Shown: one piece after another, positions 15,771-62,405 of the stretch
How positions within the stretch are numbered: the first letter of the stretch is position 1
Layout: every line of letters starts with the position of its first letter
Origin: Umezawaea tangerina
GTDB lineage: Bacteria; Actinomycetota; Actinomycetes; Mycobacteriales; Pseudonocardiaceae
Assembly (NCBI RefSeq): GCF_003002815.1
Contig: NZ_PVTF01000019.1
Coordinates: 62,001 to 126,000, forward strand
Direction: 5' to 3'
Length of the DNA stretch: 64,000 bases
Notes under the pieces: generated by a model
What the model was told of the DNA's origin: nothing
What the model saw: only the letters and a program-made list of their open reading frames with translations
Databases searched by the model: none
Translations under genes and position numbers: made by a program

Positions 15771-15984
15771 GCGTGGTTGTCGAGGCGTAGCGAGTTCGCC
15801 GGGGTGCGTGGCTGGGTGGGGGTTACGACCCGCGGTGGTGTGCTCGATTTGACTTGGGGCCCCTCTTTTTGGGCCTCGTCGGGCGAAAAAGGGCAGGTGG
15901 TAGAGCCTGCCCGCCGACCAATTTTAGGCCCAAAAACCCCAAGTAAAATCGACCACGGTTGCGTGCTTTCGTTGCGTACCAGCG
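15771..15984 (+). repeat. Dispersed palindromic-end repeat, copy 1
   Basis: The core (15844-15952) starts TCGATTTGACTTGGGG and ends CCCCAAGTAAAATCGA, imperfect terminal inverted repeats. It contains a GGGCAGG...CCTGCCC hairpin. The similarity with the copy at 62189 (inverted) extends left through GTTGTCGAGGCGTAGCGAGT and right to GCGTACCAGCG. The same GCGTAGCGAGT word also occurs at about 15677 and 15733. The whole gap 15633-16158 contains no gene. Confidence 0.85.
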
Positions 15985-16158
15985 GGTTGTCTTGGTCGGG
16001 CGTTGGTTGATGGGCGCTTCGGTGTGTGGCCGTTGGTTGGTGGGCGCTTCGCCGTTCGGCTGCGTTGGCTTTGTTGTCGTTGATCGTTCGCGGCTGTCCG
16101 TCGCCGTGGTCTGCGACCCTCTGGCTGTCCTGTGGTCGTGCACAAGCACACTGGTGTG

Positions 16159-28121: not shown

Positions 28122-28244
28122 CGAACTCGAGTGAATTGCGACGATGTGATTCCACAGCGCAGCAGCTTCACGGCCGGTGTTCTCCGTCCGCGGGAACAAC
28201 CGGTGACGGTCGCCGGTCGTCAGGCCGGCCGAGGGGAGGCAGGC

Positions 28245-28811
28245 GTGGCAGAGGAAGCGCCCATCCGGGCCGGATCCGGGGAACAAGGTGAGCTGTTCCC
28301 GGACTCCTCGCTGCCAGACGAGTACGTCGGCTACCGCGGGCCCGCCGCGTGCCAGATCTCCGGGATCACCTACCGCCAGCTCGACTACTGGGCGCGCACC
28401 GGACTGGTCAACCCGACCATAAGGAGTGCGCAGGGCTCCGGCAGCCAGCGGCTGTACTCGTTCAAGGACATCCTGGTCCTCAAGGTCGTGAAGCGCCTGC
28501 TGGACACCGGCGTCTCGTTGCAGAACATCAGGGTCGCCGTCGACCACCTGCGCCAGCGCGGCGTGCAGGACCTGGCCCGGATCACGCTGTTCAGCGACGG
28601 CACCACCGTCTACGAGTGCACCTCCGCCGAAGAGGTCGTCGACCTCCTGCAAGGGGGCCAAGGGGTGTTCGGCATCGCGGTCAGCGGTGCGATGCGGGAG
28701 ATCAGCGGGACGATCCACGAGTTCCCGGCCGAGCGGGTGGACGGCGCGGAGATCGACCCGGTGAGCGAGGACGAGCTTTCCCGGCGGCGGCGGAACCGGG
28801 CGATCGGCTGA
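28245..28811 (+). CDS. MerR-family regulator of the conserved core block
   Basis: The HTH begins at GPAACQISGITYRQLDYWARTGLV, with the wing GSQRLYSFKDILVLKVVKRLLDTGVSLQNIRVAVDHL. The C-terminal region (LARITLFSDGTTVYECTSAEEVVDLLQ) resembles mycobacterial Rv1830. GTG 28245 has the site GAGGGGAGGCAGGC; an upstream in-frame ATG-like start at 28131 is less likely. Homologues affect cell division and antibiotic tolerance in mycobacteria. It is the last core gene before the accessory region. Confidence 0.88.
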   Translation: MAEEAPIRAGSGEQGELFPDSSLPDEYVGYRGPAACQISGITYRQLDYWARTGLVNPTIRSAQGSGSQRLYSFKDILVLKVVKRLLDTGVSLQNIRVAVDHLRQRGVQDLARITLFSDGTTVYECTSAEEVVDLLQGGQGVFGIAVSGAMREISGTIHEFPAERVDGAEIDPVSEDELSRRRRNRAIG

Positions 28812-28873: not shown

Positions 28874-29038
28874 GGGGTACGGGCTGCGGTGGTGTGATCG
28901 ATTTGACTTGGGGCCCCTCTTTTTGGGCTTCGTCGGGCGAAAAAGGGCAGGTGGTAGAGCCTGCCCGCCGACTAATTTTAAGCCCAAAAACCCCAAGTAA
29001 AATCGATCACGGTTGGGTGCTTCCGGTGCGTTCCGGCG
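28874..29038 (+). repeat. Dispersed palindromic-end repeat, copy 2
   Basis: Nearly identical core to copies 1 and 3 (GATTTGACTTGGGG...CCCCAAGTAAAATC, 28899-29006). It stands exactly at the border between the conserved core block and the accessory region. Confidence 0.85.
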
Positions 29039-29096
29039 GGGTGGGTTGGAACTTCCGGCGGGGAGGGTTGGACGTTCCGGCGGGGCGGGTTGGACT
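29031..29096 (+). repeat. 22-bp tandem repeat, three copies
   Basis: Three consecutive units each start TTCCGGCGGGG and end GGGTTGGA.. (29031, 29053, 29075). Noncoding. Confidence 0.85.
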
Positions 29097-29220
29097 CAGC
29101 GTCGTGGTGGTGGGGTTGGGTTTCGTCACTGGTGATCTTGTGTGGGGTGTTCTTTCCCTTCGTTGTTGGTCCGCTGCCCGTTCTGTGAGCGGGGCAGGGA
29201 TGCGGGAGCCAGCGCCGTGA

Positions 29221-29532
29221 TCATGGATTCGTTCGACGTTTGCCGATGACGGCTGCGGCGATGATGCACGCGGTGATTCCACCCAGCAGGACTGCGGCCA
29301 CCACGGAGGGCGGTACGAGTGGCTTGAGGATGAACTGCGCCGCTAGTGACCAGCCCGCGAGCGCCACGACATAGGTGGAGACGGCAAGTCGCTTGCCTCG
29401 CGATTTCCACCGCACCACACCCGCGACGACGACCAGCAGCAACCCGCCCACGCCGATCAAGTACCCCACCCGAGCCCCCCTGTTCGTCCGCTGTCGACGC
29501 ACTTGGGATACCCGGTATCGCATGACTTCCAT
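29221..29532 (-). CDS. Small three-helix membrane protein
   Basis: The 103-residue product has three hydrophobic segments (VGYLIGVGGLLLVVVAGVV, LAVSTYVVALAGWSLAAQFIL, VVAAVLLGGITACIIAAAVI) and basic ends (RWKSRGKR, GKRRTNP). No family is recognised. A second, frameshifted copy lies at 30286-30594. Being tied to the repeated site, it could be a holin-like or immunity/membrane component of a mobile module. Starts at ATG 29532 or ATG 29520 are both possible. Confidence 0.55.
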   Translation of the reverse strand: MEVMRYRVSQVRRQRTNRGARVGYLIGVGGLLLVVVAGVVRWKSRGKRLAVSTYVVALAGWSLAAQFILKPLVPPSVVAAVLLGGITACIIAAAVIGKRRTNP

Positions 29533-29627
29533 TGCGGCGAATGGCCGCCTTCACCGAGGTGGCAACCTTCGCAAGACCGGGCCGATCGAGGTACCCACTC
29601 TGATCAGAGAGCACGGCAGCGGCGTCG

Positions 29628-30083
29628 ATGCTTACGTCTTCGCAACACACGCCCTTCGAGAACTGGACGAAGAGTCAATCCGAGTTGCTCGGGACAGTGG
29701 AGTTGGATGTGGATTGGACCGTGCCGGTCGAGGACATGCGGCAGGAACTGCGGCGTGCGCTGGAGGGCGTGGACCTGTGGGACGGGCGGGTGTGCGTGTT
29801 GCAGGTGACGGACGCGGTGAACTCGTTCGTGCGGGTACGGGCGTTGGTCAGCGCGCCGGACGCCCCGCGGTTGTGGGATCTGCGGTGCCTGGTGCGGGAG
29901 CACCTGGTCGACTGGCTGCGGCGCCGGGAACCCGGAGCACTTCCGCAGGTGCGGGTCAACGCGTTGGCGGCCGCCGTGCCGTCGGGTGATGTGCGCGGCC
30001 GAGGGGACCACGACCCGGACGCGCGGGTGTTCGGGGAGAGCGTGGACGGCGAGGAGCGGGTCAAGGCGTTCGGTGGCAACTAG
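29628..30083 (+). pseudogene. C-terminal fragment of an MscS-type mechanosensitive channel
   Basis: The frame reads TPFENWTKSQSELLGTVELD, then VDWTVPVEDMRQELRRAL, LWDGRVCVLQVTDAVNSF and LWDLRCLVREHLVDWLRR. This is the cytoplasmic vestibule of the actinobacterial MscS family. The transmembrane N-terminal part is missing; the similarity begins exactly inside the 25-bp site at 29632-29656. An ATG at 29628 exists but a bare vestibule cannot be a channel. It shares a CTAG stop overlap with the fragment on the other strand. Confidence 0.75.
29632..29656 (+). repeat. 25-bp att-like site 1
   Basis: This is a member of the six-copy family with consensus TTRCGYCTTCGCAACACA followed by YRCCSTT. It is followed by CGAGAACTGGA and then the MscS vestibule reading frame. 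The first 14 bases can form a TTRCG-TCTT-CGCAA mini-hairpin. Confidence 0.9.
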
Positions 30084-30255
30084 TTCTCCAGTTCCTGCGC
30101 GATGCGCTTCGCGACCTCGTAGGTGTCACCGATCGGCTTGGTCGGGAACTCGGTGGTCTGCGAGGTCCGCAAGCTCAAACGCCCGATCAACGACCGGCTG
30201 GTGGAGAACTCGGCGAACGGGACTCCGCCCGGCAGCAGGCCTTTCGAGTACGTGC
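30080..30255 (-). pseudogene. Unassigned C-terminal gene fragment
   Basis: A minus-strand frame of ~58 codons ends ...EFPTKPIGDTYEVAKRIAQE-LEN-stop and has no start codon. Codon use looks coding, but the family is not recognised. It is cut off by the repeat at 30283. Confidence 0.3.
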
Positions 30256-30285
30256 GTGGCTACAACGCTGATGGCACGCTGCGAT

Positions 30286-30594
30286 CACGGATTCGTTCGA
30301 CGTTTACCGATGACGGCCGCAGCGAGAATGCCCGCGGTGATGCCACCCAGCAGGACCGCGGCCACCACGGAGTGCGGTACGAGTGGCTTGAGGAGGAACT
30401 GCGCCACCAGTGACCCGCCCGCGAGCGCCACGACGTAGGCGAAGAGCGCAAGCCGCTTGCCTCGCGATTTCCGCCGCACCACACCGCGACGACGACCAGG
30501 AGCAACCCGCCCACACCGATCAAGTACCCCACCCGAGCCCCCGTGTTCCTCCGCTGTCGACGCACTGGGATACCCCGTATTCGCATGACTCCAC
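30286..30594 (-). pseudogene. Frameshifted copy of the three-helix membrane protein
   Basis: The C-terminal two helices are intact (FAYVVALAGGSLVAQFLLKP, SVVAAVLLGGITAGILAAAV). A single C is missing around 30482 relative to the left copy (ACACCGCGACG against ACACCCGCGACG), which throws the N-terminal helix (VGYLIGVGGLLLVVVA) out of frame. Confidence 0.7.
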
Positions 30595-30692
30595 TGCGGC
30601 GGATGGCCGCCTTCACCGAGGTGGCGATCTTTGCAAGACCGGGTCGATCGGGATACCCGCTCCGATCAGTACATGAACTCGCGGCTCCTTGG

Positions 30693-30717
30693 TTGCGCCT
30701 TCGCAACACACGCCGTT
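30693..30717 (+). repeat. 25-bp att-like site 2
   Basis: It carries TTGCGCCTTCGCAACACA and the CGCCGTT end, followed by CGAGAACTGGA as in site 1. It borders the NACHT interval on the left. Confidence 0.9.
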
Positions 30718-30753
30718 CGAGAACTGGATCAATTCCTGACGGGATGAAGATCA

Positions 30754-32982
30754 TTATCGAGTGGATGGAGCGGGCTGCGGTGGGGAATGAGCAAGATAGT
30801 GCTGCAATTCTCGGTGGCGGAACTGGTAGCCGATACCGGCTTGGCGGATCAGACCCGCTTGGTAGCACCAGTTGAGGAATTGACCGAGCCGCCACGGCAA
30901 TGGTCGAGTCGTGAACGGTCGCCTAATGCAGAACAGAAGAGCAACATAACGGGTTCCGGCGAGCCCAAACCTGAGGCCGAACGTAAGTCCAAACGCGACC
31001 ACAACCACGACCGCGAACACGAGTCCAGGCACGAATACGAGCCGGGCCGCGAACACGAGCCCGATCACAAGCCCGAACACGAGGCCGATCACGAGGCCAC
31101 CCGCTAGATCGAACTTGACGATTTCGCGCGGATCCCACGACGCAGCTGTCCTGTCGTCCGCGAGCCCCTCTACAAACCCGAACACGAACCCGGCCGTGAG
31201 CCCGATCACAAGCCCGGCCGTGAGCCCGAGCATAAACCCGTTTGCGAGCCCGAACACGAGCCCGCTCACGAGCCCAATCACAGGCCCGAGCCCGAGCCCG
31301 ATCACGAGTCCGAACCCGAGCCCTCCCGCAAGATGACCGGCAAACTGACGGCGGCCTCGTCGGGTTCGGAGCTTGCTGATGTTGATGAGAGCTGGCGCAG
31401 GCCAGAGCTCTGACCATGATGCGTAGGCCATGTAGACGACCCCGATCATCGGACTACCCGCGCCGACCACCTGACGAACGCTGAAGCCAATGCCAACCTG
31501 TACCAGCAGGATCGGGGTAGCGATGAGCCAGATCAGGGCGAACGCTGCCAGTACTGTAATGCGAACACGGTTGACCCCAGCAAGTGGCCATAACTGGTGC
31601 AAAACGAGATCAGTGCCGGATAGCGGCACGCCGCCCAGGGTGCGACCGATCCTGGCGTTATGCTCAAGGTAGCTGGCAAGCACACGGAGCCACTGGTGAA
31701 CTAGGTGGTCGGGGTAGCACTGTTCTGAAAGTTCGGCAGCAACCATATGGGCGGCGACGGCGGCGGGGATGAAGTGTTCCAGTAGGTGATCTCGTACCAA
31801 CTCGGGGCTGTTCGCGCTGAGCCTGGTCAATGCCACGGGATCACGTAGATAGCTTCCGGTTTCCGGTTCCCGCTGCTCGTAGACAGTGGTGGCCAGGGTC
31901 AGTCGCCACGGCGTAGACAGGCCGACAGCCAGGACAGCGCCGGGGTGGTCGGTGATGGTGTCCAAGACCGGTCGCCAGCGGGTCACGTCGGTCACGCGGG
32001 ATCGGATGAACTGTGCAGCCTTTGCTGAGTCGACCGCGCGGATTTCGACGCGTGCCGCGTCGTGTGCCCAGACCCGGACCTCCCTCAAAGCCTGATACTG
32101 GCCGCTGCGGCAGGTAAGCACCAGTGGCGCCACGTCGCGCCCATGCTGGTAGGCATTGAGTGCTTGGACAGCGCGAGCCGCTCGCGAGGCGTAGCCAGGA
32201 GTCTGGTCGGCGTCCATCTCGTCCAGGCCGTCGACGACCGGTAGAATCAAACCCCCGTCAAGGAGTGCTTCGGCCGACGAGCGCGTCAGAAGGTAAGCCT
32301 CGACAAGGTGCTCGATCAACCATCCGCGAAGAGGGCGTTCGGTGTCCCAGGCCGCCGCCGACACCCGAACCGGCACTGCGTCGCCGGGCTCTCTATCTGT
32401 AAGTAGTCCGAGTGCCAGTTCCAGCGCCAGCACCGTCTTCCCGGCACCGGGAGCACCGGTGATGACCAACCGCTGCGGGTGCAGAGCCCGGTAGTAGGCC
32501 ACCACGTCGTTGAGACGGCCCACAGGCTCGGCGTGGCGGGCGTCGTGGGCAAGCGCCGAGCGGAAGTCGAAATCCACATCGATCGTGCGCCCCTGCCCGC
32601 CCAACAACTGCGTCCGGGCCTGTCCCTCCCTGCGCTGTACCTCGGTGGCTAATCGCGCCGCCACCTCCATCGCGACTGGATGCGCGGATCGCAGCGCACG
32701 CGCCGACTGCCGAGCCGACAGGAACGCCACCGCCAGCGCAGCCAGCGCCACCACGGCGGACACCGGGTCGACATCACCGACCTTCGCCTGCGGTATCAGC
32801 CTCACCCCCATCCCGACTGCCACAGCCACACACAAGGCCGCACCAACCCCGTACACCAGCCCAGAACGGTTACCACTGCCAGTCATCACCTTGATCCCGA
32901 CCCACCCATCCCACATGTCGATAGCCGGAGACACTGCCGACGTTGTCCAGCCGAACACGACCGCGCCGAACAAGTTGCCCAC
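30754..32982 (-). CDS. NACHT NTPase with multi-pass glycine-rich membrane tail
   Basis: The N-terminus has two hydrophobic helices (~40-65, ~70-90). The NACHT domain follows with Walker A GAPGAGKT (~176) and Walker B LILPVVDGLDEMD, then TCRSGQY and helical segments. From ~residue 480 the chain is membrane-like. A long run of GLVIGL..G / GLVFGL..G units is followed by a soluble end (YQFRHRELQHYLA) typical of bacterial NACHT proteins. Bacterial NACHTs (STAND NTPases) are established phage-defence ATPases. The tail suggests a membrane-disrupting effector, which is inference. The GTG start 32982 is tentative; ATG 32886 is an alternative. It fills the interval between sites 2 and 3. Confidence 0.85.
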   Translation of the reverse strand: MGNLFGAVVFGWTTSAVSPAIDMWDGWVGIKVMTGSGNRSGLVYGVGAALCVAVAVGMGVRLIPQAKVGDVDPVSAVVALAALAVAFLSARQSARALRSAHPVAMEVAARLATEVQRREGQARTQLLGGQGRTIDVDFDFRSALAHDARHAEPVGRLNDVVAYYRALHPQRLVITGAPGAGKTVLALELALGLLTDREPGDAVPVRVSAAAWDTERPLRGWLIEHLVEAYLLTRSSAEALLDGGLILPVVDGLDEMDADQTPGYASRAARAVQALNAYQHGRDVAPLVLTCRSGQYQALREVRVWAHDAARVEIRAVDSAKAAQFIRSRVTDVTRWRPVLDTITDHPGAVLAVGLSTPWRLTLATTVYEQREPETGSYLRDPVALTRLSANSPELVRDHLLEHFIPAAVAAHMVAAELSEQCYPDHLVHQWLRVLASYLEHNARIGRTLGGVPLSGTDLVLHQLWPLAGVNRVRITVLAAFALIWLIATPILLVQVGIGFSVRQVVGAGSPMIGVVYMAYASWSELWPAPALINISKLRTRRGRRQFAGHLAGGLGFGLVIGLGLGPVIGLVSGLVFGLANGFMLGLTAGLVIGLTAGFVFGFVEGLADDRTAASWDPREIVKFDLAGGLVIGLVFGLVIGLVFAARLVFVPGLVFAVVVVVAFGLTFGLRFGLAGTRYVALLFCIRRPFTTRPLPWRLGQFLNWCYQAGLIRQAGIGYQFRHRELQHYLAHSPPQPAPSTR

Positions 32983-33290
32983 CCAAACGACCTAGGTTGA
33001 CTGCTCGTGCGTTAGTTCGTCACACCCCTGCATCGCCCATCCACGCCGCATCGTTATGGCCCGAACGAATGGCCCTCCACGGCTCACGCGTTTTCGGCGC
33101 TCCGCCTGCTCCGCTCCAGCCTCAGCACATCGCTGACATCCAGACCGATCATCGTCGGCATCCCCTCGGCTGGCTAAGCCGCGCAAGCAACGCGATCCGC
33201 AAGGTATGTCTGGACACCGCAGAGTCCAGCCGGAGGGAGCGTCAGTGACTCGCAGCCGTGCTGACGCATACGGCGGACGACTGGCATTGG

Positions 33291-33315
33291 TTGCGTCTTC
33301 GCAACACATACCCTT
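33291..33315 (+). repeat. 25-bp att-like site 3
   Basis: TTGCGTCTTCGCAACACA with a TACCCTT end. It lies about 300 bases beyond the NACHT start. Confidence 0.9.
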
Positions 33316-34003
33316 CGGCAAGACCAGCAGGAGCGGCCAGCGGAATGCGGCATGATCACGCCTCCGGCCACGCGGTGCTATCGGCTGTGGTGGTCGAGCC
33401 TTAACAACGTTCACATGTGCGTTCCCACCACGGCCATTCCTCTGGCGCGAGAGGGTTGGGCAATGTTCGCTGACGAAACTCATCGTCCATCAGGGCAATC
33501 AAGCGGGTGAGGGCTCGCCCTGACGACGTGGACATCATCGCGAGCACTTCGTCCAGAAGCGCTCAACTCCCGCGACCACAGCACGCACATGGGTGAGATT
33601 CCACAGCCCGTGGGGTCAACGCGGTCCGCGACCACCCCGCGAGTGCTTCTGACACCGCACCAGGCCAAAGTCCGAACTGTGCCCAGTTGGCCGCGGTTTT
33701 GATCTCGATCTGAGCGTTTTCCCTTGCACCGCTGCGGGAAGACCCCGAATGTGTGGCGTGTGCCGCCACATCGCACGATGGCGAGTCATCCGCCTGAACT
33801 TGTGGGGCCGCTTGCGCGGCATGCGAACTCTCTTCAGATACGCAAACCACCGACACGGTCAGGCTATCAGCCACGGCTGCCACTCGACCTGAAGTCACGA
33901 CCACCGGACTCCCCGGACATGCGGTCGTCACTCGTCGAGTAGCGACCACTTGCCCAATCCACGATCGTGAAGCGCCCTGGCGACGTCGGACGCTACTCAG
34001 CGG
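33316..34003. other. Site 3 to site 4 interval without a recognisable gene
   Basis: About 690 bases lie between two att-like sites. Overlapping frames of up to ~128 codons exist on the minus strand, but none has a ribosome binding site, domain or coding-like third-position bias that I can see. It may be a decayed cargo module or carry an RNA. Confidence 0.5.
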
Positions 34004-34028
34004 TTACGTCTTCGCAACACACGCCCTT
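34004..34028 (+). repeat. 25-bp att-like site 4
   Basis: TTACGTCTTCGCAACACA with a CGCCCTT end. The following ~140 bases (to about 34145) are clearly related to those after site 5. Shared words are TAGTTA.CGGTTC, CGCATT.TTGCGGTTTC, GATCTCTTG and GACCAGTTCG. Confidence 0.9.
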
Positions 34029-34229
34029 TATCGAGACTAATAGTTAGCGGTTCATTCAGTTCGGAGCCAAGCAGAAAATTCGCATTCTTGCGGTTTCTTC
34101 TTAGGGTGGATCTCTTGCGACCAGTTCGAGTTAGCTCGTTGGCACTTCTTCCGAGCGCAAGAGGAAAAAATATCCGACCGACATGGAATCCATAAACTAG
34201 CAATGCAAAACGTACGTCAGATATTATAA

Positions 34230-36152
34230 TTACTCGTCATGAAGGTCATCAATAGTGACCACTTCGGATTCGCCTGGGTGCTCGATGGTGGCAACAGTCG
34301 GGTGGAGATAGTTAAAGTCTACCTGTGCGTAGTGCCCACGGTAGCTGTCTGGAAGCTCATTGTCAGCGATGATGAACTGGACACGGCCAGGATTGGCGTC
34401 AGCCTGAGTGACAAGCCTCCGGTAGAGCGCTGCCGTAAGCTTCTCTGCTGTGTTTAGCGCTAGCCGAGGGCTATCAAGGAGCAGAAATGCTGGATAGTTT
34501 GTGTCGTGGTTGCGTAGGGCTATAGCCAGCAGAGAGGACCAGTAGGCCACCTGCGTGGCGGTAGCCATGCCACCGCCCACTTGAACCACTTGGGAGAAAA
34601 TCTTACCGTTAAGGAACGGCAGGTACTTGTCTTTGTCAACGGATGCAGTCTGCACACCGGGGATACCAACTGCCGCGACAGTGCTGGCGAACTCTTCGCT
34701 AATCTCATCGACGATGCGGGTACGGCGTTCTTCCAGTTGTGCGGTAGCCCGTTTCAACTGCCCTTTTAGCTGTTCACGCTCACCTCGGAGAGTATCTGCG
34801 GCATTTTCCAAGTCTGCTACCCGATCCCACTGACGCAACGTGGCTTCGAGGAGTTCTTGCTGCGTCCGCGCTGTGGCGAGACGCTGTGAGGCGTCACTGA
34901 ACGCTTGCAGCCGCGGAGTCACCCGCTCGGCCGTGCGAGTTTCGAGCGTGCTAGAGAGGTGTTCGATGAGTCGCTCGCGATCGCCAATAGCGCGTATGAG
35001 TACTGCTTGCTGGGTGTCCAGAGCGCGGAGCTGGTCTTCCATCTCGGTCAGCTGAGACGCAAGTTGCCGAACCTCGTACTGATCAATTTGCCCGGTGTCG
35101 ACGACAGTGTCAGCTTGCAGACACAACCGGCAGGCGCCTGCGGGTATGTGTCGTTCAAGGGACTGCATGCAGCGAGGACATACTGTGAATTCGATGTCAG
35201 CCAGACGTTCGCCGGCCGTGCGCATCCTGTCTAGCCGATCGAGGTCGCCTTGGACCCGGCGACGTTCAGCCATGTATTCGGCTTGTCGCCTGTTCAGGTC
35301 AACATTAGCGGTACGGACATCAGCGAGGGCCCGTTCGGCTTCCGCCAAAAGATCCCGCACTACTTGCGTTTCCCGGTCAGCGATCGGCTCAATTTCTTCC
35401 CGAAGGGCGCCCAGTTCCCGCTCGGCGGCTTCCTGGTTGGCCCGTGCTTGCTCGCCGGTCTCGACGGCTTCGCTGCGGGCGGTAGTGCCGCTGGCACGCA
35501 GAAATTCCACCACCGTGGAGTGCTCTTTTTCTGCACTGTCAATCTTAGCTTTGAGTTTGTTGATGCGCGAGCGCATTGCCAGGATGTTTGCGTCAGTCAA
35601 GCCAAAAAGAAGCTCGAACACTGCCCGGCGCTTGGGTTCAAGGTAGCTGTCTTGACTACGTGCGATGTCGCGGTTGATCTCGTATTGAGGGATGTAGAGG
35701 TAGGTCAGAATGTCATTGAAGGTGATACGGTTGCCTTCACGAACACTGTTGCCACCTGCGGCAGCGCGCATATCATCGGGTAGGCCGAGGCAGCGCAAGA
35801 GGAGCGTATTGAGACTTGGTTGCTCATTGCCGACGTTATGGTCAGGTTGCCGTTCTAGTGTGACCAGGTCGGTGACACGCGCAGTCTTACGTTTAGCCTG
35901 ATCCAGGCTGCGCGTAAGTCGCAGCTTTTCATCGCCGAGCGTGACGTCGAGCGACACAGCCTCTACGTGCTCAACTGCGACTGGGGCAAGGCGAGCGTCA
36001 CCTCCGAAGCCGAACTTGATCAGCTCCAACAGCGTGGTCTTACCTACCCCCGTCGGACCTGCTAGAACGGTAAGGTCGGAGGTGAACTGATAACCAACCT
36101 CGCCTTCAGTTGTGTCAAGGGTCAAGGCGTCGATGCGGAACTGAACGGTCAC
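34230..36152 (-). CDS. ABC-three-component (ABC-3C) system ATPase
   Basis: This is a Rad50/RecF-like ATPase of 640 residues. Walker A GPTGVGKTT is at ~32-40. Long coiled-coil arms lie at ~185-290 and ~360-470, with a zinc-hook-like pair FTVCPRC...GACRLC near their tip. The signature-region QVGGGMATATQVAYWSSLL and Walker B AFLLLDSPRLAL (~560) follow. The D-S-P form of Walker B is usual for SMC-like conflict-system ATPases. The start overlaps the middle-component stop (ATGA), making a three-gene operon. ABC-3C systems were defined computationally as probable phage or plasmid defence systems. It occupies the interval between sites 4 and 5. Confidence 0.85.
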   Translation of the reverse strand: MTVQFRIDALTLDTTEGEVGYQFTSDLTVLAGPTGVGKTTLLELIKFGFGGDARLAPVAVEHVEAVSLDVTLGDEKLRLTRSLDQAKRKTARVTDLVTLERQPDHNVGNEQPSLNTLLLRCLGLPDDMRAAAGGNSVREGNRITFNDILTYLYIPQYEINRDIARSQDSYLEPKRRAVFELLFGLTDANILAMRSRINKLKAKIDSAEKEHSTVVEFLRASGTTARSEAVETGEQARANQEAAERELGALREEIEPIADRETQVVRDLLAEAERALADVRTANVDLNRRQAEYMAERRRVQGDLDRLDRMRTAGERLADIEFTVCPRCMQSLERHIPAGACRLCLQADTVVDTGQIDQYEVRQLASQLTEMEDQLRALDTQQAVLIRAIGDRERLIEHLSSTLETRTAERVTPRLQAFSDASQRLATARTQQELLEATLRQWDRVADLENAADTLRGEREQLKGQLKRATAQLEERRTRIVDEISEEFASTVAAVGIPGVQTASVDKDKYLPFLNGKIFSQVVQVGGGMATATQVAYWSSLLAIALRNHDTNYPAFLLLDSPRLALNTAEKLTAALYRRLVTQADANPGRVQFIIADNELPDSYRGHYAQVDFNYLHPTVATIEHPGESEVVTIDDLHDE

Positions 36153-36721
36153 CGGATCACCTGCCGGTGCGGACGGTCCATGAGGTAGGCAAGCCGTTCA
36201 TAGATGCGGTCTTTCAACGCATTTCCTGTCATGTTCGCCGACGCCTCAGCAATCGCGCGGCTGCGATCGTTGATGTCGATCCACTGTTGACTATTCCCCA
36301 GGTCATCAGCGAGGCGTCGGCCAGCAGGAGTGGGGGTCACGGCAACGCTGCCCTTGCGGGCACCTGTGTAGCGTAGTAGTCCTCGGCCGATCAATGCGCC
36401 GATGATGGCGTAGTACCGATCATCCCAAGGCCCATATTTGTACCGCGTCATTGGCGCTTCGACGTGTGTAGGTGCGGATAATTCATGCACACCGAGGTGC
36501 AACCGCGGGTCAGTCCGATCGAGTCGGTCGAGAACCTGCGGAGCCAAGGCCGGGTAGCGGAGGAGAAAGTCCAATTTTGCCAACTTGGTCAGCCCGTCGA
36601 GCTTATTTGCATGCCCCTTAGTAGCGGCCACCGCGGTGACCAACAGCAGCACCCGCGCCTGATGATAGGCAAGGTCTTCACGCAACAGTGTACGTTCGAG
36701 TACGTCTTCGGGTTGGGTCAT
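36149..36721 (-). CDS. ABC-3C middle component
   Basis: This 190-residue, mostly helical protein has a winged-helix-like part. It carries KLDGLTKLAKLDFLLRYPAL, a tight MTRYKYGPWDDRYYAIIGAL motif, then GLLRYTGARKGSVAVTPTPAGRRLADDL. This pattern is typical of the middle component that bridges ATPase and effector in ABC-3C systems. It overlaps both neighbours by 4 bases, so the three proteins are made together. Confidence 0.75.
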   Translation of the reverse strand: MTQPEDVLERTLLREDLAYHQARVLLLVTAVAATKGHANKLDGLTKLAKLDFLLRYPALAPQVLDRLDRTDPRLHLGVHELSAPTHVEAPMTRYKYGPWDDRYYAIIGALIGRGLLRYTGARKGSVAVTPTPAGRRLADDLGNSQQWIDINDRSRAIAEASANMTGNALKDRIYERLAYLMDRPHRQVIR

Positions 36722-38118
36722 GATGCCGCTTCCCGCTCAGCGCGCAGCCGCGCAATCACTGCGTCGACGTCAAAACGCTGCCCGAACCACACCTTGCATC
36801 GATTAGCCCACTCGCATAGCCCACCTAGGGCGAGATCGGCGTCCATGCCAGCGGGCAACGAGTCGCTAGGAAGCTCGTCCATCCGCTGTTGCAGCCGCCG
36901 CCACAACACTCCGCCAGCGACAGAAACGGAGTCGTTGGCCTCGTCATTGATGCGGAGTAGCCGACGCTCGAAGCCTCTTTGCTCCACGCGAGCCAGGGCG
37001 TCGCCGCTGATGCGGTCACGCCAGTAATCCTGGTACTCCATGCGCAAGTGCTCGGCACGCTCGACGGCATTGTCGGAGCATCCGCCGGTGTTCATCTTCA
37101 CGGCCAGTCGAGTGGTCAGCGGCACCCGCTGCACCGGCTCGTATCCAGCTGGCATGGCGAGAGCCGTCCTGATGGCTATGTCAATGTCGCTCATTGTGAC
37201 GATCCGCGCGGCTAGGTCGCGCTCGACGTCGTTGGCGGTTGGCACGGAGGCCCCCACTCTGTAGGCCATCACGGCGGGCAAAGCCGCGCTTGGTATGGGC
37301 CCTTTGGCGCGCATACGGGCTCGAAACAGCCGCACTACGGCTTCCCACACGACGGCGACTCTTCCGCTCATAGCTAGTCTGTCAAGCACGGGTTGAGCAA
37401 ACATCGACGGTGCTGCATACTCAATGTGAGCGCGCTGCGGTTTGCCGTGATCCAAGCGCAACATAGACAGGAACCGAGCCACTTCAGTGCACTGCTTGTC
37501 CTTTGATACTGGCGCTGAACCGCCTGTTCCCTTCCATCGGGATTTGACGGCAGAGTGATAGCGAGCGATCGACTCTCGCAGCTTATCCACAACATTACGG
37601 TGGTCATCGGTCACTGTAATGGCAACGCCAGACAGTCTCATCTGACGGAAGTAGTCACACGCCGCCAGAACATCTTGGGGGTCTCCAGCAGCGATTCCTC
37701 CGGTAGTGACCAATCGACACAGCGGGGTCTCATCCAAAACAGACCAGCGCTCAAACAAATGCGCAAGCCCGCCCTCATCAGCGAGCTTATTTACAGTAGT
37801 AAAGGCGCTAACTGAAGGATCGCGATGTTTGCCCGATACGAGCTCAGCGTCGTCTCCCTCAAGCAAAACCCAGTCTTCCTGCCATTCGCACAGAACACGA
37901 CCGTCGCAATCATGCGGCAACCTCCCTTGGTCGTCGAGCGACCGTAGGTAGAGTGCCAGGCTGTCTGCAGCAGCCATGGCTGCCTGCCACTCATAGCGAT
38001 CGGCAGTGTCTGACCCGGAGTCTTCTGCTGGAACCACTGATAGCACCATTTCGGCTGCAGTCACCGGGGTACCACTGCCAGCGACTCCAAGCGAAGGAAC
38101 AAGTGGCCCTAAGGACAT
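36718..38118 (-). CDS. ABC-3C effector, DUF4297/Cap4-like nuclease candidate
   Basis: The N-terminal domain reads DRYEWQAAMAAADSLALYL, then VLCEWQEDWVLLEGDDAELV and SGKHRDPSVSAFTT. This arrangement (Y-E-[WY]-Q, E-D, E..x-G-K-H) fits the restriction-endonuclease-like DUF4297 domain found in Cap4 and many ABC-3C effectors. The K-H is the likely catalytic end of a PD-(D/E)xK core. The C-terminal ~350 residues are helical and unassigned. ATG 38118 is tentative; an in-frame TTG at 38145 would add nine residues. First gene of the operon. Confidence 0.7.
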   Translation of the reverse strand: MSLGPLVPSLGVAGSGTPVTAAEMVLSVVPAEDSGSDTADRYEWQAAMAAADSLALYLRSLDDQGRLPHDCDGRVLCEWQEDWVLLEGDDAELVSGKHRDPSVSAFTTVNKLADEGGLAHLFERWSVLDETPLCRLVTTGGIAAGDPQDVLAACDYFRQMRLSGVAITVTDDHRNVVDKLRESIARYHSAVKSRWKGTGGSAPVSKDKQCTEVARFLSMLRLDHGKPQRAHIEYAAPSMFAQPVLDRLAMSGRVAVVWEAVVRLFRARMRAKGPIPSAALPAVMAYRVGASVPTANDVERDLAARIVTMSDIDIAIRTALAMPAGYEPVQRVPLTTRLAVKMNTGGCSDNAVERAEHLRMEYQDYWRDRISGDALARVEQRGFERRLLRINDEANDSVSVAGGVLWRRLQQRMDELPSDSLPAGMDADLALGGLCEWANRCKVWFGQRFDVDAVIARLRAEREAAS

Positions 38119-38233
38119 CGGCACACTATAGAGCCCAGCGATCAAAACCTGGCTGACGACACTGCGCGATCACTCTAACGGCGGCAGCAGTCGACATGGC
38201 TACGCCGTTAGCCCTACGTAAGGCGAAACAGAG

Positions 38234-38270
38234 GCCCTGTGGAGGTGTAGAACTTCCGCCCTCACAGGGC
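38234..38270. terminator. Hairpin upstream of the ABC-3C operon
   Basis: GCCCTGTG (38234-38241) pairs with CACAGGGC (38263-38270), with further partial pairing inside. It stands between the mini-HTH ORF and the ABC-3C operon on the same strand and may separate them. Confidence 0.4.
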
Positions 38271-38295
38271 TTCCTCATAAAGCCCACCATCCGCA

Positions 38296-38409
38296 CTACC
38301 GCTTGCGGACGCTGTGTGCTTGAAGTAGCCGCTTGATCGCGCGTACCTCGATGCCGTACCGATCCACCACTACGCGCACCGGAGCCCTGGACCTGTGCAG
38401 GTCGATCAT
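38296..38409 (-). CDS. 37-aa helix-turn-helix mini-protein
   Basis: ATG 38409 follows an excellent site (GAGGAGCAGGAGCC). The product MIDLHRSRAPVRVVVDRYGI + EVRAIKRLLQAHSVRKR reads as a single HTH. It is like the C-terminal DNA-binding tail of serine recombinases (..V.DRYG...R.IKRLL..H.VR). It may be a stand-alone regulator of the ABC-3C operon or the relic of a recombinase. It is too short for automatic gene calling. Confidence 0.45.
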   Translation of the reverse strand: MIDLHRSRAPVRVVVDRYGIEVRAIKRLLQAHSVRKR

Positions 38410-38595
38410 GGCTCCTGCTCCTCGCTGCTGAAGCGGTGGCGGAGTCACCGCGGCCGCCTGTCCCGTGCAAGGTGACGTTCACATGGACACCGAACGTGGA
38501 CTTCGGGACGGGCGGGACGGGTTCACGACGACCCGTCCCATCGCTCCACCGGATACGTCAACGCTGCTCAGAGGCAACACATGCCCGTCCTGCCC

Positions 38596-38628
38596 TACCT
38601 GTCCCATGTATAACGGGCGGGACAGGTA
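38596..38628. other. 10-bp hairpin before site 5
   Basis: TACCTGTCCC (38596-38605) pairs with GGGACAGGTA (38619-38628). The words GGGACGGGT and ACCTGTCC recur in the surrounding 150 bases, so the stretch may hold several protein-binding half-sites. No other gene is seen between 38410 and 38687. Confidence 0.5.
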
Positions 38629-38687
38629 CGGCTGATCCAGAGGGACGGGTACCTGTCCTGGCCTGTGCGTGAGCCTCAAGTTTTTAG

Positions 38688-38712
38688 TTACGTCTTCGCA
38701 ACACACACCCTT
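38688..38712 (+). repeat. 25-bp att-like site 5
   Basis: TTACGTCTTCGCAACACA with a CACCCTT end. The right flank to about 38830 is homologous to the right flank of site 4. Confidence 0.9.
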
Positions 38713-38970
38713 CGTTGAGACCAGTAGTTAAAGGTTCGCTTGGTCTTGAACTAAGTAGCAAGGTCGCATTTTTGCGGTTTCGTCTCTTGGGGTGAATCTC
38801 TTGTGACCAGTTCGGGCCAGCATTGAGTAGCGTGCGGTTATGCCCCGGCGGTGAACGTGCGCGGGCGGATGTCGTGAACGGGGCGTGTTTCCGTAACGGG
38901 GAGCAGGTGAGGTGCGATCATCGACTACCGTCCGCGGGCGCACTGGGGGCTTGGGGTGAGGGGATCGGTC

Positions 38971-39627
38971 ATGGTCGGTCGGAGTCGCGCGTGGTGGGTG
39001 GCCGGTGGCGCCCTTGCTGGTGGTGGTCTGGTGTGGGCGGTGCTGCGGTTCGGCGTGCCGGTCTTCCTGACCGACGAGAACCACCCGGCTCGCCCTACCT
39101 TGGAGGCGTTGAGCTGGATCGCCGGCATCGGCGGCCTGGCGGTGGCTGTCGTGGCGCTGGTGGTAGCGATGCGGCAAAAACCCGACAGCACCGCGATGCA
39201 CCGAATGGACACTCCTGCCGAATCGCACACGCCCTCCGGTGACGGAGCGATTGAGCGAGGCGCAACCTTCGTCGAAGCTGAGAAGAACAGCGGCCTAGCG
39301 GCCTCGGAGAGTGTGACTGTCGTCAGCGGCACCGCAAACGCTTCGGCAGCGGCAGTATCGCGATCGGCGCGGTCGGGCGTGACGCGAACCTGGGGCAGGC
39401 ACCGGACCCTCACCGGCCGGACCGGGCTTAGAGCACCCCGCCCCCGGAACCACACCCGCTCACCCCACGCCCCCGGCCACCTCACAGACCGGCTACGCAC
39501 ACACCGGCCCTGGCGGTGCCGCCGCCAGGACCGTCGGACGAGACTTCAACGTCGTCTATTAGGCTGCTGCCGCGACCGGTGCAGCCGCAGTTGTCATCAG
39601 GCTGAGCGGTGCGCCAGGTCGGGGTGA
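38971..39627 (+). CDS. Membrane-anchor half of a split NB-ARC protein
   Basis: ATG 38971 has GAGGGG upstream and opens a frame with two transmembrane helices (WWVAGGALAGGGLVWAVL, ALSWIAGIGGLAVAVVALVV) and a linker. This is the usual N-terminus of actinobacterial NB-ARC-TPR proteins. Coding sense moves to another frame near 39345 (GSGSIAIGAVGRDANLG is read in frame 3), so the end of this ORF to 39627 is not native protein. Confidence 0.55.
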   Translation: MVGRSRAWWVAGGALAGGGLVWAVLRFGVPVFLTDENHPARPTLEALSWIAGIGGLAVAVVALVVAMRQKPDSTAMHRMDTPAESHTPSGDGAIERGATFVEAEKNSGLAASESVTVVSGTANASAAAVSRSARSGVTRTWGRHRTLTGRTGLRAPRPRNHTRSPHAPGHLTDRLRTHRPWRCRRQDRRTRLQRRLLGCCRDRCSRSCHQAERCARSG

Positions 39628-39652
39628 GCTGTTCGTCGGCCGTGCCGAGCAG

Positions 39653-41593
39653 GTGGAACAACTGTTGGATCTGCTCGCCCCCGCAGCTACTGAGTCGGGT
39701 TCGGGGACGGTGGTGGTGTCAGCGGTGGCGGGCATGGGCGGGATCGGCAAAACTGCACTCGCCCGCCACACCGCGACCCAGGCCGCCGAGCAAGGCTGGT
39801 TCAGCGGTGGCGTGCTGTTCGTCGACCTGCGCGGCTACGACCTCGACGACAACCCTGTCCAACCGGAACAGGTGTACGCACCGGTGCTGCGCGTCCTCGG
39901 CCTAGCCAGCGAGCAAATTCCGGCCACAGTCGACGAGCAAGCCACGGTGTACCACCAGGTTCTCGACCAGCTCGCCGACCAAGACCATCGAGTGCTTCTC
40001 GTCCTCGACAACGCCTCCACCGGCAGACAGGTGTCCGACCTGCTGCCACGACATCCGGCACACCGAGCGCTGGTCACCACCCGCGACACCCTCGCCGGTG
40101 CTCGCCAACTCGACTTGGACGTCCTCGCTACCGATGAGGCCGTGCACCTGCTCACCCGCATCCTTGCCCGACGCCACCCCGATGACACCCGAGTCACCCA
40201 GGAACCGGATGCGGCAGTTCAGCTGGTGAACACCTGCGGGGCGCTGCCGCTGGCTGTGGAAATCACCGCCTCGATCCTGGCCGACGAACCCACCATGACC
40301 ATCACTACCCTGCTCGCCGAACTCACCGACGGGCTGGGAGTGCATCGCGTCCGGCACGGCGAACAATCCCTGACCACCGTCTTCGACCTGTCCTGGCGAA
40401 GGCTCCGCGCCCGCGAGCCCGAAGCAGCCGACCTACTGCCACTGCTCACCCTCAACCCCGGATCCGACTTCCACACCGACGCTGCAGCAGCTCTCGCCGG
40501 ACACCCACCCGCACACGTAGCACCCTGGCTGCGGGCACTGCGGCAGGCGAGCCTGCTCCGCCACACCAACGGCAGATGGTCCATGCACGACGTAATCCGC
40601 CTGCACGCCCGTGACCACCTCGACCCCCAACAACGAAACCCCGCCACACACCGACTACTAGAGCAATACCAGCACACCGCAAGAGCAGCAGATGCTCACC
40701 TGCGGGCACTACCAGGTAACCCAGTGCCCGACCGGTTTACCGGCCGCCAAGACGCGCTAGCCTGGTTCGACATCGAACACACCAACCTCACCACCGCAGT
40801 CACACTCGCGTTGGACACCGGCCACTACGAGCTCACCACCCAACTCGCCACCAACCTGACCCAATACCTGGAGTGGCGTCGCCATTTCACCGACTGGGTC
40901 AGCGTCAGTGAACACGCACTCACCGCCGCCAAACACCTCAACACCCCCAGTACACTTGCCGACGCCTGGAGCTTTCTTGGGCTCGCACTACGGGAGATAC
41001 GGCGGTTCGACGAAGCAATCACCGCCCACTATCAAGACCTCGCCATCTGTCTGGAAACTGGCGACCGCCATGGCGAAGGCGCGGCACTGAACAACCTCGG
41101 AAACGCACTGCAGGACGTGCGGCGGTTCGACGAGGCGATCACCGCCCACCAAAACGCCGCCACCATCTACCAGGAAACCAGCGACCGCCACAGCGAAGGC
41201 ACAGCGCTGAACAACCTCGGGATCGCACTGCGGCGGGTGCGGCGGTTCGATGAAGCGATCACCGCTCACCAGATCGCTTCGACCATCTGCCGAGAGACCG
41301 GCGACCGCCACGGCGAAGGCAAGGCGCTGAACAACCTCGGAAACGCACTACAGGAGCTGCAGAAGTTCGAGGACGCGATCACTGCCTACCAGAATGCAGC
41401 CATCATCTACCGAGAGACCAATGATCGCCACCGCGAAGGGCGAACGCTATGCAACCTTGGGCTCGCACTGCAGAATTTAGGACGGCTGGATGAGGCCAAG
41501 AGTGCCTGGAGGAAAGCAGTAACCGCATTCCAGGAGACCGGCGACACGCACTGGGAAGCAATCGTGACCAGTAGGCTGGGCGAGTCTTCGTAG
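39653..41593 (+). CDS. NB-ARC-TPR (STAND) ATPase, 5' part damaged
   Basis: NB-ARC motifs are all present: P-loop VAGMGGIGKTALARH, Walker B HRVLLVLDNAS, ALVTTRD, GALPLAVE and the MHD-type WSMHDVIRLHARDHL. After residue ~350 come about five 40-residue TPRs (RRFDEAITAHQNAATIYQET and similar), nearly repeated at DNA level. Similarity extends upstream in this frame to 39563 (SGAPGRGELFVGRAEQVEQL), but no start codon lies there. TAG at 39560-39562 cuts it off from the anchor half. Translation could begin at GTG 39653. Related STAND proteins sense phage proteins. It fills the interval between sites 5 and 6. Confidence 0.8.
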   Translation: MEQLLDLLAPAATESGSGTVVVSAVAGMGGIGKTALARHTATQAAEQGWFSGGVLFVDLRGYDLDDNPVQPEQVYAPVLRVLGLASEQIPATVDEQATVYHQVLDQLADQDHRVLLVLDNASTGRQVSDLLPRHPAHRALVTTRDTLAGARQLDLDVLATDEAVHLLTRILARRHPDDTRVTQEPDAAVQLVNTCGALPLAVEITASILADEPTMTITTLLAELTDGLGVHRVRHGEQSLTTVFDLSWRRLRAREPEAADLLPLLTLNPGSDFHTDAAAALAGHPPAHVAPWLRALRQASLLRHTNGRWSMHDVIRLHARDHLDPQQRNPATHRLLEQYQHTARAADAHLRALPGNPVPDRFTGRQDALAWFDIEHTNLTTAVTLALDTGHYELTTQLATNLTQYLEWRRHFTDWVSVSEHALTAAKHLNTPSTLADAWSFLGLALREIRRFDEAITAHYQDLAICLETGDRHGEGAALNNLGNALQDVRRFDEAITAHQNAATIYQETSDRHSEGTALNNLGIALRRVRRFDEAITAHQIASTICRETGDRHGEGKALNNLGNALQELQKFEDAITAYQNAAIIYRETNDRHREGRTLCNLGLALQNLGRLDEAKSAWRKAVTAFQETGDTHWEAIVTSRLGESS

Positions 41594-41688
41594 CGGAGTA
41601 CACGCCTCATGTCCTTCATATGACTGGCAAGGGCGGTTCGGCTAGTCGGGTACGAGCCCTGGCCAGGGCTCGATGCAACGGTTCTTAG

Positions 41689-41713
41689 TTGCGTCTTCGC
41701 AACACATACCCTT
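41689..41713 (+). repeat. 25-bp att-like site 6
   Basis: TTGCGTCTTCGCAACACA with a TACCCTT end, about 100 bases after the NB-ARC-TPR stop. It shares TTAGTT with site 5 on its left. It is the right border of the accessory region. Confidence 0.9.
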
Positions 41714-41790
41714 TGAGGGTTTCTTCAAGGCTTCTTGGGGGTTTGGTATCCCTGAGTTATGGGTGGTGGGGGTGACTAGGGTTCTTCGGC

Positions 41791-42435
41791 ATGGTCGAGC
41801 CTGCTTACCTTGCTGCTACGCGGATCTCCTACGACACGGTTGCCGAGGACTACGCGGAGGTGGTGAAGGGGCTTTTTGCGAACTTTCCGCTTGGGCGTCA
41901 CCTTCTTGCGGCGTTCGCCGAGTTGGTCCGGGGTGACGGGGGTGGGCCGATCGCGGATGTGGGGTGTGGTCCGGGGCAGGTGACCGCGCTTCTTAGCTCT
42001 CTTGGCGTGCAGGCGTTCGGTGTGGACCTGTCGCCGAACATGGTCGGCATCGCTCGGCGCACCTATCCCGATCTGCGGTTCGAGGTCGGGTCGATGACCG
42101 CGCTCGACGTTCCGGACGGGGAGCTGGGTGGTGTGGTGGCCTGGTGGTCGATCTTCCACGTGCCCCGTGAGGAGCTTCCGGGCGTGCTCGATGGCTTCCA
42201 CCGGGTTCTGGCGCCGGGTGGTCGGTTGCTGGTCGGGTTTCACGTGGGTGATGAGCGGTTGAGTCCGCGGAGCGCCTACGGCGGGCATCCGGTGTCCTAC
42301 ACCGTTGATCTGCACCGGCCGGAAGCCATGGCGGATCTGCTGGGGGAGAGCGGGTTCGAGGTGACCATGCGGCTCGTCACCGAGGGCGCCAAGCGCCAAG
42401 GCGCATGCCTGCTCGCCCGCAAGGCCGTCGGCTGA
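41791..42435 (+). CDS. Class I SAM-dependent methyltransferase
   Basis: Motif I IADVGCGPGQVTALL (~residue 55), motif II GVDLSPNMVGIARR, and the post-I and motif III region (ALDVPDGELGGVVAWWSIFH, FHRVLAPGGRLLVGFH) define a type 11-like methyltransferase of 214 residues. The substrate is unknown. It starts at ATG 41791 right after the accessory region and is transcribed toward the gcvP riboswitch. Confidence 0.85.
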   Translation: MVEPAYLAATRISYDTVAEDYAEVVKGLFANFPLGRHLLAAFAELVRGDGGGPIADVGCGPGQVTALLSSLGVQAFGVDLSPNMVGIARRTYPDLRFEVGSMTALDVPDGELGGVVAWWSIFHVPREELPGVLDGFHRVLAPGGRLLVGFHVGDERLSPRSAYGGHPVSYTVDLHRPEAMADLLGESGFEVTMRLVTEGAKRQGACLLARKAVG

Positions 42436-42614
42436 CCAACGGAAAATGTCGGTGCCCGTCCGTACGGTGTTGACCGGGGGCCCACCCGTCGAGGGGACCC
42501 CGGTCTCGTGGTGTCGTTTTCGCTGATCGGCCGGGTGATCCGCCCTAGTGATCCGCATCGCGCCCGTGGTACCGCGTCCATGCCGGCCGGGTACGATTAC
42601 CGGGTAGTCGCTGA

Positions 42615-42815
42615 ACCCGTGCGGGAGAGTCCGAGTTCCCGTCCGCTCGGCGCCGAAGGAGCAAATCCTCCCCGGAACCTCTCAGGCGCAAGGACCGCAC
42701 GGGCTAGACGCCTCTGGAAAGTGGGCCGGGAAACCGACCCCGCCGACGGTGAAAACCCGGTCTCGTGCCGGGTGAAGCTCTCAGGCGCCCGCTGAGCGGG
42801 TTGGAGACAGAGGGG
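42615..42815 (+). ncRNA. Tandem glycine riboswitch
   Basis: Two aptamers stand in a row. The first runs from GTGCGGGAGAGTCC through CGCCGAAGGAGCAAATCCTC to CTCTCAGGCGCAAGGACCGC. The second runs from CCTCTGGAAAG through CGCCGACGGTGAAAAC to CTCTCAGGCGCC. These are the conserved cores of RF00504. The switch lies in the leader of gcvP and should turn on P-protein synthesis when glycine is abundant. No T-rich terminator is obvious in the 50 bases before the ATG, so translational control is likely. Confidence 0.95.
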
Positions 42816-42868
42816 GAGGGCAACGGCAGAAGTGTGTCCGTAGCCCAACCCCCGCCGGAGGCGCCTCC

Positions 42869-45754
<2,886 letters not shown>

Positions 45755-62087: not shown

Positions 62088-62188
62088 CCGACCAAGCAAG
62101 AGCAAGACCAAGAGCAACAACAAAGCAGGGGCGGGAGCAGGAGCAGCAACAAGGCAGCACCAACGAAGAACGTCCGACCCACGAAAGC

Positions 62189-62405
62189 CGCTGGTACGCA
62201 ACGAAAAGCACGCAACCGTGGTCGATTTGACTTGGGGTTTTTGGGCTTACAATTAGTCGGCGGGCACGCTCTACCACCTGCCCTTTTACGCCGACAAAGC
62301 CCAAAAAGAGGGGCCCCAAGTCAAATCGACCACACCACCGCAGGTCGTAACCCCCACCCAGCCACGGACCAGGCGCACTCGCTACCCCTCGACAACCCCG
62401 CACAA
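62189..62405 (-). repeat. Dispersed palindromic-end repeat, copy 3 (inverted)
   Basis: This is the reverse complement of copies 1 and 2. The core is ~62219-62327, and the similarity to copy 1 continues through the word ACTCGCTACCCCTCGACAAC into the 3' end of the cupin gene. It lies between the convergent SDR and cupin genes. Confidence 0.85.

Follow-up and report, generated by a model that had tools for sequence, protein, structure and literature searches.

Background

Does a short sequence repeated between candidate defence genes mark the joints at which those genes were brought together? The question is raised by a locus of the actinobacterium Umezawaea tangerina, analysed here within a window of 64,000 nucleotides (G000:C19:62001-126000, where G000 denotes the host genome, of 10.68 Mb in 34 contigs at 69% G+C, and C19 one of its contigs). 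Between a MerR gene (28131-28811) and gcvP (42869-45754) of this window, copies of a 25-bp site divide a series of genes that includes a complete Lamassu anti-phage operon. An earlier note on this DNA, made from its letters alone, had reported six such copies, all on one strand, and had proposed that they are recombination points of a cassette-like defence array. By comparing the window with two congeners (G001 and G002) and with a wider set of 390 genomes of the family, we find that the locus is best read as inserted DNA made up of mobile gene cassettes strung in an array, each of which ends in a single conserved site; a recombinase acting in trans would join them. We assign this reading a probability of roughly 0.7.

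Results and discussion

A site confined to few loci

With up to 3 mismatches allowed, TTRCGYCTTCGCAACACA is matched exactly six times in the window, always on the forward strand and always without a mismatch (positions in Table 1), just as the earlier note had it. The mean number of matches expected in the window by chance is 0.16, and none of 100 shuffles reached six. The whole host genome holds six further matches, each with 2-3 mismatches and no copy with fewer than 2. One of these, at C10:38309 (3 mismatches), is a decayed true site at a separate locus of the host. Among the 390 family genomes a 22-mer search allowing up to 2 mismatches found matches in G000, in G002 and, once and with 2 mismatches, in G149; the last was rejected as a site, its context having no CCSTT. 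A covariance model gives nine sites (seven in G000, two in G002) 41.7-57.9 bits, scores that are not independent of the model, which was built from the same nine sites, and the next best match among the 390 genomes reaches 22.8 bits. At E <= 0.5 the model has a match in 71 of the 390 genomes; those scoring no more than 22.8 bits were taken as noise, and stricter filters were used for the nine-site result. The site is not widely dispersed: its copies are those of the window array, the decayed one on C10, and two in an interrupted gene of G002. Rfam returned no relevant match for it, and literature searches, judged by titles and opening abstract lines, turned up nothing that describes the site or the array.

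A split mscS gene and a second locus

The interrupted gene of G002 is mscS, which is whole in G001 (380 amino acids), G231 (394 amino acids) and G380 (about 390 amino acids). In G002 it is split within the codons for TPFENWT by two site-ended cassettes, units A and B; 3.7 kb separates the two parts, and an exact site stands at the end of each unit. With a slash marking the joint, the 5' part (to about residue 239) leads into the insertion as ...ACGCCGTTCG/CTGAGAGG, its end reading ...CTGAAGACGCCGTTCG and then CTGAGAGG, while the junction of the 3' part is ...ACACACCCTTCG/AGAACTGG, the gene resuming with AGAACTGG after ...GTTACGTCTTCGCAACACACACCCTTCG. The IS3-type DDE transposase gene of unit A (L022 7631-8977) probably entered the cassette at a later time.

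In the window, the mscS tail that follows site 1 starts at the very codon at which the G002 gene is split and leads into the tail of an alpha-N-acetylglucosaminidase (NAGLU) gene. The G002 mscS gene and the window array thus have one joint in common. The second locus of the host (L032 10176-12334, on contig C10) presents, in order, mscS and NAGLU tails, an AbiEi/AbiEii pair, the decayed site and a sequence resembling unit A. Past the decayed site, a stretch of 464 bases is 79% identical to the beginning of G002 unit A; this homology begins at the second base past the TT of the site on C10 and at the fourth in G002, and the left neighbours differ. The same cassette start accordingly occurs at two loci in two species, as mobility of a defined unit predicts. 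The C10 locus is an older-looking second array in the host genome, and cassette mobility by site-specific joining is, in our judgement, well supported.

Insertion at the gcv locus

In G002 and G001 the MerR gene and gcvP have no array between them; their gcvP genes are 98% and 96% identical, respectively, to that of the host. Of the eight best plasmid-borne relatives of gcvP listed, seven belong to actinobacterial genera, with identities of up to 71%. Collinearity of G002 with the window stops at 29049 and resumes at 41743. To place the edges, a script joined the flanks of the window and slid the two edges along the G002 sequence. On the right, the edge comes to lie between about -10 and +30 bases relative to the end of site 6 (41713), where the earlier note had ended the array. 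On the left, the score peaks near 29060 and declines slowly to a CCCTT/CG motif at 29160; since the peak lies near 29060 and not at 29160, we state the left edge as a range and have lowered our confidence in the cassette reading slightly. The inserted DNA begins upstream of site 1, somewhere about 29050-29160, so that site 1, the start of the array in the earlier note, already lies inside it. The congeners differ from the host, and from each other at mscS, by site-bounded insertions, which supports the proposal that the sites are recombination points.

Several other features lie outside the array. Three head-to-tail 22-bp copies (29029-29094), left of the array and gapped against G002, blur its left edge. 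A dispersed palindromic repeat of ~100-160 bp (CGATTTGACTTGGGGCCCC...CCCCAAGTAAAATCG), MITE-like (miniature inverted-repeat transposable element) or terminator-like in character, has three copies in the window and is present in G002 too. On the right, the glycine riboswitch aptamer on the forward strand upstream of gcvP scores 70 bits against a gathering threshold of 32.

Anatomy of the site and of the units

The full site spans ~38 bp and consists of a 6-bp hairpin with a 4-base loop (GTTRCG-YCTT-CGCAAC), followed by ACAYRCC and S/TT/Y. Each unit, 0.5-4.7 kb long and with genes in either direction, carries a single terminal site, and conservation is one-sided: the right end is common to all units, while comparison of eight left ends showed likeness in just two pairs, Lamassu/NB-ARC (98 bp, 75.5%) and A/C10. 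The Lamassu, NB-ARC and G002 B units have a longer right end in common, of 67-72 bp including the site (76-78%). The hairpin pairs in 52 of 54 cells on the bottom strand and in 46 of 54 on the top strand; the bottom strand pairs better because the R of GTTRCG gives A.C on top and G.T below. In the C10 copy one hairpin pair is altered on both sides. Within the 75 bases before the nine sites, perfect inverted repeats average 7.1, against 5.5-5.7 in random stretches (resampling 0.004); repeats of at least 7 bp precede six of the nine sites, and their sequences differ between units. The 75 bases before the hairpin have a mean fold-energy z of -1.26, compared with -0.29 for random stretches of the array.

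These sequences suggest where the strands are exchanged. The left joint of the G002 mscS insertion reads CCGTTCG and the right joint CCCTTCG, a difference between CCG and CCC that places the exchange 3' of S. Among the six window sites the base after TT is C or T and follows the right-hand neighbour, the sequence to the left being nearly constant, and this variable base places the exchange 5' of Y. The exchange point would then be the TT within CCS/TT/Y. The two chromosomal targets appear to share CCSTTYGAG, the CCC half at the gcv locus being assigned from the motif at 29156-29160.

Gene content of the units

Lamassu and AbiE are clear cargo. The three-gene operon in the window, which had been called an ABC-3C operon in the earlier note, scores instead as Lamassu in PADLOC (LmuB, the SMC-like ATPase, E 5.7e-73; LmuC, 2e-11; LmuA, the effector, 3e-12), and PADLOC also recognizes the pair on C10 as an AbiEi regulator followed by an AbiEii nucleotidyltransferase. 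The NACHT and NB-ARC-TPR genes lie in the intervals to which they had been assigned from the letters. The NACHT ATPase (742 amino acids) is identified by Pfam (NACHT, E 9.5e-07) and has no PADLOC match; the C-terminal part of its gene contains 12-bp periodic repeats (30990-31335). The NB-ARC-TPR protein matches Pfam NB-ARC (E 1.2e-12) and TPR_12 (1.5e-42) and resembles AfsR and HaaT of NCBIfam, far under their cut-offs. A role of this protein in defence is a guess, the likeness to AfsR-type regulators leaving its assignment ambiguous. The interval of ~690 bp in which no clear gene had been seen corresponds to the 713-bp unit, two open reading frames (ORFs) of which were scanned with no match in Pfam or PHROG. 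The description of the whole as a defence array consequently suits the Lamassu and AbiE units; it is carried by Pfam for NACHT, is ambiguous for NB-ARC-TPR, and does not extend to the several units with no recognised gene.

Table 1. Features of the array, of its flanks and of related loci (window coordinates unless a locus is named)
Feature	Position or length	Strand	Basis or remark
Possible left target half CCCTT, gcv locus	29156-29160	+	motif only
Unit 0: small membrane-protein ORF (29221-29532, -, 103 amino acids) and terminal site 1	29161-29656		left edge by motif
Site 1, followed directly by mscS tail	29632-29656	+	
mscS 3' fragment, starting at the codon where the G002 gene is split	29657-30083	+	
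NAGLU 3' tail	30084-30168	-	convergent with mscS tail
Second, frameshifted copy of membrane-gene unit, with site 2 (30693-30717)	30277-30717		
NACHT ATPase unit (gene 30754-32982, -), ending in site 3 (33291-33315)	30718-33315		Pfam
Unit of 713 bp, no gene recognised, with site 4 (34004-34028) at its end	33316-34028		
Lamassu unit: LmuB 34230-36152, LmuC 36149-36721, LmuA 36718-38145 and small ORF 38126-38482 (all -), ending in site 5 (38688-38712)	34029-38712		PADLOC (Lmu genes)
NB-ARC-TPR unit (gene 39653-41593, +), ending in site 6 (41689-41713)	38713-41713		Pfam
Chromosomal right flank, collinear with the empty G002 locus	41714-42868	+	glycine riboswitch 42612-42707; gcvP from 42869
G002 unit A: periplasmic-binding-protein-like gene and IS3-type transposase	about 2.95 kb		
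G002 unit B: no recognised gene	731 bp		
Dispersed palindrome, window	15835-15996, about 28890-29010, 62177-62338		
Dispersed palindrome, other loci	L040 15064-15226 (reverse complement); L022 3138-3245		

A possible mechanism and its likeness to integrons

In the proposed mechanism, a recombinase supplied in trans would connect two TT dinucleotides, one in the site that the cassette carries and one in a target, either a chromosomal sequence of the CCSTTYGAG type or an existing site, and repeated joining would set cassettes head to tail in a single orientation. The intermediates may be circular or single-stranded. By analogy with integrons, the hairpin may be the substrate, probably in its bottom-strand form.

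The layout of the units is that of an integron cassette array without an integrase. As in integrons and in CALINs (clusters of attC sites lacking an integron integrase), each cassette bears a single site, placed at a fixed end, in a same-direction tandem array, and as in CALINs no integrase stands beside it. The left ends are variable, as in integrons, and the joint S/TT resembles the integron joint, G/TT. The better pairing of the bottom strand is a further likeness, attC sites having a preference for that strand according to two reports (PMC2117344, PMC6393395). Nevertheless, the locus does not pass as an integron, because there is no IntI above the cut-off, no outer stem was found, and units are as long as 4.7 kb, include a multi-gene operon and have genes pointing either way. 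In contrast to attC, the array sites share ~25 bp of primary sequence and have a hairpin of only 6 bp with no outer box pairing found; they do not show the full attC pattern of an imperfect bottom-strand hairpin with R''/L''/L'/R' boxes and a G/TT joint, the inner hairpin pairing better on the bottom strand and an outer box stem being no better than random. The integron integrase model TIGR02249 has no match above its curated cut-off in any of the 390 family genomes (best 93.8 bits, against 265), and its weaker matches, present in all 390, are such as general tyrosine recombinases would give. In one large survey, complete integrons were not found in Actinobacteria (PMC9024848). A bolder reading, at somewhat less than even odds, is that a cassette-recombination system independent of integrons arose in these bacteria, in which a recombinase would read a single folded, one-armed site and stock chromosomal spacers with whole defence operons, multi-kb Lamassu and NLR-like genes among them.

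Search for the recombinase

The genome-wide search for a candidate recombinase covered the tyrosine class, through Phage_integrase. It yielded 10 matches in G000, 17 in G001 and 29 in G002, of which 52 of 56 were compared as translated open frames, some of them fragments. The four omitted were all from G002: two had duplicate scores, one lay at the other chromosome end and one was half of a split match. Among those compared, a single pair with more than 60% identity is common to G000 and G002 and absent from G001 (81%; G000:C12 and G002:C1:7449105; L105, L119). It fits the distribution of the site and was dropped as the cassette enzyme since both members lie beside adjacent tRNA-Gly/tRNA-Pro genes; it probably serves an integrative element that targets tRNA genes. 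Among HUH transposases, the Y1_Tnp profile PF01797 found nothing in the three congeners while its control was positive in 5 of 14 genomes; the Y2 profile PF04986 was likewise negative in all three, with a control that was itself silent (0 of 14).

Alternative explanations

Tandem accretion is also the habit of integrative elements and satellite islands, which resemble the array in having a fixed target inside a gene and a short common core. Islands without an integrase of their own might have accumulated here through an ordinary tyrosine or serine integrase, the site being the attP core and attB lying in mscS or in the gcv spacer. Same-direction tandem units at a short core, together with intact and split attB, are typical of that class, tyrosine recombinases are present in all three congeners, and a core of just two bases, TT, would be in keeping with a serine integrase. 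Such islands would nonetheless be expected to have two conserved attP arms, and only one is found; the units here go down to 0.5-0.7 kb, no integrase profile was detected in the ORFs scanned, and the only fitting pair among the tyrosine recombinases compared is the one at the tRNA genes. On this balance we consider accretion of islands doubtful. Non-autonomous single-strand transposons of the HUH type, like IS200/IS605 or Helitron/IS91, would account for other features: the hairpin and CCSTT would be the right or terminator end of an element inserted 3' of CCSTT. The hairpin ends ~10 bases before the end of the unit, the short target motif recurs at both edges of the mscS insertion with no clear longer target duplication, and read-through might explain how mscS and NAGLU tails came to the gcv locus. 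In most units, however, the left end is unconserved, and neither of the profiles described above picked up an HUH transposase in the genus, Y1 being the one with a responsive control; we judge this origin improbable. Finally, the sites might be mere repeated hairpins (terminators or MITE-like sequences) in a defence island grown by homologous recombination or chance insertion. They do form small hairpins, a dispersed palindrome lies nearby in the window and the left gcv edge is not fixed. This idea is already contradicted by the G002 site that coincides to the base with the insertion edge in mscS; the right gcv edge lies at the last site or no more than ~30 bases from it, and across the genome the copies are few and short. 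We find this idea very hard to credit.

A number of observations weigh against the reading that we prefer, an array of cassettes joined in trans. The 1.06 kb that separates sites 1 and 2 does not have the make-up of a simple cassette. The MscS fragment and membrane-gene relic noticed earlier are indeed there, and so is the NAGLU tail, which had been missed, as had an intact copy of the relic before site 1, 87-89% identical to the frameshifted one before site 2. After site 2 come 11 bases that correspond to the beginning of the mscS tail, and then the NACHT unit sets in; tandem duplication, capture of a chromosome piece or read-through could have produced this interval. At the gcv locus the left edge is unconfirmed, its best fit to G002 lying ~100 bases left of the CCCTT motif, and the gap in G001, where collinearity stops at 28811 and resumes at 42548, extends past the last site. 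Covariation in the hairpin is suggestive only, its bottom-strand value being reached by 62 of 500 shuffles. An attC-like outer stem across the site was sought and rejected: the observed complementarity, 47.5, compares with a mean of 44.5 for swapped upstream sequences (251 of 2000 reach it) and of 50.8 for random ones (781 of 1000).

The distribution of the site and the whereabouts of the enzyme belong to the same account. Only two species, those of G000 and G002, carry sites. An exact-pattern scan of GTDB species, which was made without a chance control and from which near relatives may be missing, gave six stray matches (two of them in one Pirellulales metagenome-assembled genome) that look like chance, none with the STT end; the corresponding scan of viral contigs, with the same possible gap in near relatives, gave none, and neither scan found a genome with an autonomous partner. 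LmuB is matched at E <= 1e-30 in 21 of the 390 family genomes, G000 included. In the flanks of the Lamassu relatives from other genera (8 of the 20 genomes) no stretch resembles the site at 5 substitutions or fewer; in three of the eight, the two flanks share weak direct repeats, 16-38 bases long and of a different type. The unit ORFs scanned, which are not every ORF, show no tyrosine or serine recombinase profile, in keeping with the report from the letters that no integrase gene is present. Phage_integrase has no match on contig C19 or C10 of the host, and in G002 the nearest lies ~199 kb from the sites, an absence that tells equally against an island integrase.

Conclusions

At this locus the question of how defence islands come to be assembled can be tested at base resolution: the array provides a defined joint sequence, along with two loci of natural insertion, for an enzyme hunt. 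If the cassette reading is true, an integron-like array of an actinobacterium that carries anti-phage systems would represent a second route to the assembly of defence repertoires.

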